This document shows, piece after piece, positions 48,640 to 49,573 of a stretch of DNA of 64,000 bases. Position numbers and translations under genes: made by a program. Within the stretch, counting starts at the first letter, position 1. Each line of letters opens with the position of its first letter. The notes under the pieces were generated by a model, which worked only from the letters and a program-made list of their open reading frames with translations, ran no database searches and was not told the DNA's origin. The stretch covers positions 1-64,000 of the forward strand of contig DAICZP010000094.1 of assembly GCA_027311065.1 (NCBI GenBank), given 5' to 3'. Source of the DNA: Thiomonas sp. GTDB taxonomy: Bacteria > Pseudomonadota > Gammaproteobacteria > Burkholderiales > Burkholderiaceae_C.

Positions 48640-48915
48640 TCAAACCCTCCGCGCCAACGGCCCGAGTGCTGCACGCTCCAGGGCGGCCAGTTTGCACTCA
48701 AACCGCGCCGAACCGATTTTGGAGCGCTCGATGACGCCGGCGCGAACGGCGCTCGCGTAGTACGCGCGCATCGCATCAAACGGCGCGCGCAGCAGCGTCC
48801 TGACGGCCAAAGCGAGGTTGAAGACGGCGGCGGTGTCGGGGCTTGTTGCTGCATCGTCGTGCGGTGGCGTGCAAAACACGCAAGCAGGGTCCCGGCTGTG
48901 GCCGGTGGTCACCAC
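48640..48915 (-). CDS. Hypothetical 91-aa protein, overlapping the upstream DUF3563-like gene
   Basis: ORF start overlaps the 3' end of the DUF3563-like ORF on the same strand. Confidence 0.45.
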   Translation of the reverse strand: MVTTGHSRDPACVFCTPPHDDAATSPDTAAVFNLALAVRTLLRAPFDAMRAYYASAVRAGVIERSKIGSARFECKLAALERAALGPLARRV

Positions 48916-49115
48916 ATCGGCCTCCAGGCTGTAGCGCCTCGCACGGTCGCTCTCGGCAGAAACGGCGCGCGCTGGAGATCGCCGTTCTCGAGTTCGTGTT
49001 GCCGACGCTCGAGGTCTGCCGCATCGACAGACTGCGCCAGATAGCGCTCGTTGCGTTCCAGTTGTGACGCAAGACCTGGAAAAACCTTGTGCAGAAATTG
49101 TTTGACGGTGCGCAT
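48909..49115 (-). CDS. DUF3563-like small protein
   Basis: RKxFLH...ERYLAQSVDAADLERRQHELE, paralogous to the 49370 ORF. Confidence 0.68.
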   Translation of the reverse strand: MRTVKQFLHKVFPGLASQLERNERYLAQSVDAADLERRQHELENGDLQRAPFLPRATVRGATAWRPMW

Positions 49116-49149
49116 GGTGGATCTCCCTGCTGGGAAGCCTCTTCGTGAT

Positions 49150-49165
49150 TTAGGGTTAACCCTAA
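49150..49165. promoter_or_regulatory. Palindromic operator-like site, copy 1
   Basis: TTAGGGTTAACCCTAA, perfect 16-bp palindrome, 35 bp upstream of minus-strand start. Confidence 0.72.
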
Positions 49166-49297
49166 TTTAGCAGCTTCTCAGCAACCGCGAAAAGCCCACA
49201 CCGTTCGTGTTGCTATGCAGCAATGCCTCTGTCTGCGATCTGACCACGCTGGCAGCGATACCCAGGCTGATTTGTTGCACGTCCTGGCAACATGACC

Positions 49298-49326
49298 TTG
49301 AATTTCGCGTCAATCGGGCCTAGATT
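49298..49326 (+). promoter_or_regulatory. Sigma70-like promoter
   Basis: TTGAAT-17 bp-TAGATT, -10 running into the palindrome. Confidence 0.6.
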
Positions 49327-49342
49327 AGGGTTAACCCTAATC
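49323..49342. promoter_or_regulatory. Palindromic operator-like site, copy 2
   Basis: GATTAGGGTTAACCCTAATC, perfect 20-bp palindrome. Confidence 0.75.
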
Positions 49343-49369
49343 ACTGGCTCCCCTTCGGGGAGAATGATC

Positions 49370-49573
49370 ATGCAAGCTTTCCGGAAGTTTCTTCACGCTC
49401 TCCTCGACATCGATGCGCAGCAGCGTCTTGACGAAGACTATCTGGCCCATTCAACCGATATTGCGGACCTCGAGCGCCGCATGCTCGACTTGGAAATGGA
49501 CCATCATGGTGCATTTTCACCGCAGTTCGACGCCCACGACGCGATTGCCGATCACGGCCGTCCTCGCTGGTAA
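49370..49573 (+). CDS. DUF3563-like small protein (start 49364 or 49370)
   Basis: MQAFRKFLHALLDIDAQQRLDEDYLAHSTDIADLERRMLDLEMD. Confidence 0.72.
   Translation: MQAFRKFLHALLDIDAQQRLDEDYLAHSTDIADLERRMLDLEMDHHGAFSPQFDAHDAIADHGRPRW

Follow-up and report, generated by a model that had tools for sequence, protein, structure and literature searches.

A palindrome fused to the -10 element of two divergent DUF3563 promoters in Thiomonas, a probable operator of a Burkholderiales regulator

Two small genes in a 64,000-nucleotide stretch of Thiomonas sp. DNA, referred to here as a whole as the window, point away from each other and carry the same palindrome at their promoters, which raises the question of what the palindrome is for and which kind of factor might read it. 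The original prediction had described the genes as DUF3563-like paralogues, and both encoded proteins exceed the Pfam gathering cut-off for PF12086 (26.9 bits) and thus belong to DUF3563 (Table 1). The two proteins are 36% identical; MSTFTQFLHK-type proteins cluster with the product of the minus-strand gene and MFNPAKF-type proteins with that of the plus-strand gene. Judged from the sequences, the pair represents two subfamilies with no recent duplication. In an alignment of 30 DUF3563 members, D30, L34, E35, and R37 of the motif D-x3-LE-x-R are invariant. A PF12086 search detected DUF3563 in all 28 genomes of our genus set, which includes Thiomonas sp. FB-6 (L198), and multiple copies are common. 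The predicted structure, a weak model with a mean pLDDT of 68 and a pTM of 0.44, consists of two helices, and a literature search on DUF3563 returned nothing relevant.

The 16-mer TTAGGGTTAACCCTAA is present in exact form at positions 49150-49165 and 49325-49340, and the copy at the plus-strand promoter is extended to a 20-bp palindrome, GATTAGGGTTAACCCTAATC, at 49323-49342. Read toward each gene, TA(A/G)ATT runs straight into AGGGTTAACCC at both DUF3563 promoters, so that the palindrome is fused to both -10 elements as originally proposed, with which the conservation in relatives described below also agrees. The TTGAAT-17 bp-TAGATT promoter predicted for the plus-strand gene was likewise found; only this gene has a near-textbook -35 element, that of the minus-strand gene being poor. 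Each window gene has one operator copy. No further copy of TTAGGGTTAACCCTAA was found in the window, even with up to three mismatches (chance, 0.02), and the genome-wide search suggested in the original prediction yielded no exact 16-mer in the 2.76-Mb genome beyond those at the two DUF3563 promoters.

Table 1. Features of the divergent DUF3563 locus (window coordinates).
Feature	Position	Strand	Details
Partner gene, second in the operon of DUF3563 gene 1	48640..48915	-	Up to 91 aa, GTG start; no Pfam name
DUF3563 gene 1	48909..49115	-	68 aa, C-terminus WRPMW; MSTFTQFLHK-type subfamily; PF12086 28.8 bits, E 1.2e-6; alignment
Operator core GGGTTAACCC, minus promoter	49153..49162	-	Within palindrome 49150-49165
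-10 hexamer TAAATT, minus promoter	49164..49169	-	Adjoins operator
PhbF/PhaR-type box TGCTGCATAGCAA	49210..49222	-	60 bp upstream of minus operator core (as in relatives), 118 bp upstream of plus core
-35-like TTGAAT, plus promoter	49298..49303	+	17-bp spacer; -35 columns conserved in genus
-10 hexamer TAGATT, plus promoter	49321..49326	+	Sequence, genus conservation
Operator core GGGTTAACCC, plus promoter	49328..49337	+	Within 20-bp palindrome 49323-49342
Leader hairpin CUCCCC-UUC-GGGGAG	49348..49362	+	Overlaps Shine-Dalgarno of plus gene; leader -11.7 kcal/mol
DUF3563 gene 2	49370..49573	+	67 aa, C-terminus GRPRW; MFNPAKF-type subfamily; PF12086 34.7 bits, E 1.7e-8; alignment

Analysis of the DNA upstream of 50 DUF3563 genes of the genus, a comparison with relatives that the original prediction had recommended, revealed GGGTTAAC(C/A)C at the corresponding place in 48 of them; one of the two exceptions (L045) is degenerate. 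Scanning the 28 genomes independently of genes for TANANT-N-GGGTTAACCC gave 44 strand-matches (43 sites) in 27 genomes, compared to none for the reversed control. A DUF3563-type frame lies downstream of 30 of the 32 -10-fused matches checked in the retrieved loci. Of the remainder, one is an already counted palindrome read in the opposite direction, and one belongs to a degenerate gene (MTTLIEYLKTLFL...LRW) with the partner gene behind it. The strict site is thus practically confined to DUF3563 operons in the genus, and palindromic AGGGTWWACCC sites away from DUF3563 genes are, by estimate, about as numerous genus-wide as base composition predicts.

In a profile of 35 non-redundant promoters (pairwise identity below 80%), the -10 and the core hold about 1.9 bits per base, versus 0.28 in the other columns; the core columns of this profile are partly selected by the search, and the unbiased figure is 48/50. 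Because the genomes are related, the counts overstate independence, and the stronger evidence comes from the non-redundant profile and from recurrence at unrelated genes. The conserved unit is the 10-bp core together with the -10. The 16/20-bp palindrome originally described is exact in the window, and its outer arms are only partly conserved among relatives. A dispersed repeat, a transposon end, or a recombination site lying near the promoters by accident could also appear as a perfect palindrome in two copies, but the copies number two per genome and both lie at orthologous promoters, in a fixed register with the -10 and with unrelated flanks. Copy number, register, and flanks make this origin, which had been named as the outcome that would overturn the proposal, extremely improbable: the palindrome is real and strongly conserved, and neither chance nor a dispersed repeat.

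Both subfamilies have their own operator in other genomes, which indicates that the two genes have the palindrome in common because they share a regulator, and not because one promoter was freshly copied. Several promoters in the genus also carry paired copies, whose location varies by subfamily (-17/-18 or +15). In some MFNPAKF-type members (L011-L017), two copies are placed around the -10, for instance as GGGTTAACCC-TATATTA-GGGTTAACAC, and the 50-aa DUF3563 subfamily has its second copy at +15. A second box at a distance of 15-18 bp was found in 11 of the 35 promoters, compared to a mean of 1.7 and a maximum of 6 after shuffling.

Outside the genus, the core of Burkholderiaceae DUF3563 promoters is relaxed to GGG-WWWW-CCC, often in two copies flanking the -10 (TATAAT), as in GGGTTTTCCC-TATAATAC-GGGTTATCCC, GGGTTTTCCC-TATAATTC-GGGAAAACCC, and similar arrangements. 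The pattern GGGWWWWCCC-TA-N5/6-GGGWWWWCCC occurs in 35 of 150 Burkholderiaceae genomes and had no match in the control. The targets read encode DUF3563 or DUF3563-like proteins in three genera; the target in a fourth genus is an unrelated 55-aa protein (MIQQAYYTPKF...). In named genomes of Castellaniella, Pusillimonas, Verticiella, Candidimonas, Eoetvoesiella, and other Alcaligenaceae, a -10-fused site also precedes the gene of an unrelated 60-76-aa protein, and 14 of 15 of these small-protein sites have another copy 17-18 bp upstream. GNAT acetyltransferase genes in Burkholderiales are likewise preceded by a -10-fused site, and a gene for a 52-aa protein in G291 has two copies. Several further families of the order have DUF3563 promoters without the GGG box. 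The recurrence at Burkholderiaceae, Alcaligenaceae, and GNAT promoters points to GGG-W4-CCC in register with the -10 as the element that is conserved across the order. The small regulon that had been anticipated is consistent with the near restriction of the strict site to DUF3563 in the genus, and has to be widened for the order, where the site class is broader. A literature search on the GGG-W4-CCC motif gave nothing relevant. Single GGG-W4-CCC matches were rejected as regulon evidence, since TAGGGWWWWCCCTA matched 35 of the 250 genomes searched across the order, against about 13 for its reversed control.

Since the GGG sits at the discriminator position, and the -10 and the core are conserved as a single block, the site could in principle be a factor-free core-promoter element, made of a G-rich discriminator and the initial transcribed sequence and conferring, for example, ppGpp/DksA sensitivity, with its symmetry being incidental. 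However, the GGG and CCC arms are conserved to about the same degree, and the related cores vary the W4 centre and keep both arms. Moreover, a discriminator would not lie at the places where second full copies are found, ahead of the -10 or beyond the start. We regard this explanation as unlikely.

The core also contains GTTAAC, a GTWWAC site, which an orphan adenine methyltransferase of the BCAM0992 / RSc1982 type might methylate beside the -10 and thereby set expression. In favour of this possibility, GTWWAC is enriched in Ralstonia promoters, its methylation near promoters has been connected with gene control in Ralstonia and Burkholderia, and in Burkholderia cenocepacia methylation near the -10 is associated with repression (PMC5390034, PMC7364216). 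The relevant methyltransferase is a PF01555 protein encoded between trpB and trpA, an arrangement seen in three Burkholderiaceae genomes. Against it, no PF01555 match (E 1e-10) was detected in 19 of the 28 genomes of the genus, including the present one (G000), while the site is found in 27; the GGG and CCC arms are conserved too, and equivalent sites elsewhere read GGGTTTTCCC, GGGAAAACCC, or GGGATTACCC, which lack GTWWAC. Thus, GTWWAC is part of the conserved sites in the genus and not of the Burkholderiaceae cores. Compared to the promoter methylation of Ralstonia and Burkholderia, which likewise involves GTTAAC at or near promoter elements, the palindrome here is longer, is conserved without the methyltransferase family, and often lacks GTWWAC in relatives. 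The missing PF01555 proteins and the non-GTWWAC cores rule out methylation as the general reason for the conservation, and we consider it very unlikely to be what sets expression from these promoters.

Instead, the palindrome is probably the operator of a sequence-specific and presumably dimeric Burkholderiales regulator, most likely a repressor that would occlude RNA polymerase, with a PhaR-type second input. The site is symmetric, conserved, and held in fixed register with the -10, as expected of a promoter-occluding operator. Its core, GGG-W4-CCC (GGGTTAACCC in the genus), would occupy roughly positions -6 to +4, immediately downstream of the -10, a placement that most readily fits a repressor: a protein bound there would cover the predicted start site and block RNA polymerase, and relief of repression would switch on DUF3563 and, where present, the downstream partner. 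The symmetry of the core implies a dimer, and the paired sites suggest that two dimers could bind. Repressor operators that overlap the -10 and +1 are classical, as in the lac O1, TetR, or LexA type, and the present site resembles them in being symmetric, in register with the -10, and predicted to occlude polymerase, but differs in that the -10 is directly fused to the site or sandwiched between copies spaced 15-18 bp.

No regulator gene lies between the window genes, as the original prediction had stated, and none of the conserved neighbours encodes a DNA-binding protein. A local TetR regulator was rejected as a candidate; only at L327 is such a gene divergent to the Alcaligenaceae-type gene, and the other loci have no orthologue of it. 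The operator itself offers a handle that could serve as bait for the regulator and as a test of the conditions that turn the genes on, and it provides a route to small proteins of linked function in Burkholderiaceae and Alcaligenaceae.

A further element, missed by the original prediction, is a PhaR/PhbF-type box upstream of DUF3563. The motif TG[N]TGC[N]3GCAA is bound by Herbaspirillum PhbF, as confirmed by footprinting (PMC3206438), and a related palindrome is recognised by PhaR of R. eutropha, whose binding around a start site can lead to repression or activation (PMC12849132). Within 300 bp upstream, the motif is found in 22 of the 50 genus promoters, compared to an average of 0.11 in shuffles. 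In 21 of the 50, which are all box-bearers except the plus-strand window gene, the box precedes the core by 59-61 or 48-51 bp, two positions that differ by one helical turn. The plus-strand window gene has no consensus box at -50/-60 and only the shared box at -118. Similar boxes are seen at about -50 in several Alcaligenaceae promoters. The 15-base TGCTGCNNNGCAACA is several-fold commoner in the genus than its reversed control, with many matches in coding sequence.

The co-occurrence of box and core suggests a polyhydroxybutyrate (PHB)-linked input to the DUF3563 promoters: a PhbF/PhaR-type protein bound about 50 or 60 bp upstream, where activators commonly sit, would probably add a PHB-state signal as a second input. 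PhaR/PhbF might even be the sole controller, the GGG core being a variant PhaR site, as the fixed box positions in 21/50 promoters and the start-site binding, repressing or activating, of R. eutropha PhaR (PMC12849132) would allow. Yet GGG-W4-CCC fits neither TG[N]TGC[N]3GCAA nor YTKNTGCRNYGCANMAR, and a PhaR-type box is missing from 26 of the 48 core-bearing promoters, so that we attach very little probability to control by PhaR alone. Like the promoters studied here, those of phaP1 in Ralstonia eutropha and phbF in Herbaspirillum seropedicae contain TGC...GCA boxes, have regulator sites next to the -35 as well as around the start, and drive small target proteins; they differ in that the -10-fused site here is GGG-W4-CCC and not a PhaR site. 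DUF3563 is not a phasin by Pfam, and its link to PHB is a predicted one.

We tentatively entertain the possibility, on sequence grounds, that the GGG-W4-CCC regulator and PhaR together control a lineage-varying set of 50-76-aa proteins that would form a PHB- or starvation-linked regulon. Its proposed members are DUF3563 with its partner, the Alcaligenaceae RLTDELERQL protein, and the 55-aa protein of another genus. The PhaR-type box provides a first functional hypothesis for DUF3563, namely a role in PHB metabolism or starvation. As separate observations, a TGCTGCNNNGCAACA box is located shortly before hemL (glutamate-1-semialdehyde aminomutase, named from sequence) in several genomes of the genus (L377, L378, L386, L388, and L393). 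In two genomes of the genus (L369 and L391), a GNAT gene has both GGGAAAACCC and, at a distance of 44 bp, a TGCTGC/GCAACA-type box, in the reverse order to that in DUF3563 promoters.

The original prediction had also overlooked a conserved second gene downstream of the minus-strand DUF3563 gene, whose start overlaps the stop of DUF3563 gene 1 (GTGGTGA). At 22 further loci of the genus, and also in G300 of the same family, a DUF3563 gene has a homologue of this partner behind it. The partner proteins show the motif PFDAMRA-x2-ASAVR-x-G...LERA-x-LGP-x-ARR and are a family widespread in the genus. Searches of the protein against Pfam and PHROG gave no match. No partner was found after MFNPAKF-type genes, the plus-strand window gene among them.

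Hairpins of the form CUCC(C)/UUCCC...GGGAG, which take in the Shine-Dalgarno sequence, can form in both window leaders (49348-49362 on the plus strand and 49123-49137 on the minus strand), and weaker equivalents are seen in many, not all, relatives. Translational control by these predicted hairpins is possible. A C-terminal tryptophan is encoded in 45 of 48 genus DUF3563 genes (WRPMW, RPRW, RALW, QAAW), the preceding tails being variable.

GGG-W4-CCC palindromes are also found at LysR (L087, L328, L329), GntR (L335), and dct transport genes (L317-L319, L330, L351), mostly as single copies without a fused -10. The LysR-type regulator gene that follows the palindrome is similar in the three genomes. 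TAGGG-W4-CCCTA precedes C4-dicarboxylate transport genes (dctP, dctA/dctB, dcuA-like) in several Burkholderiales families (L317-L319, L330, L351, L102), and these sites could be a separate regulon.
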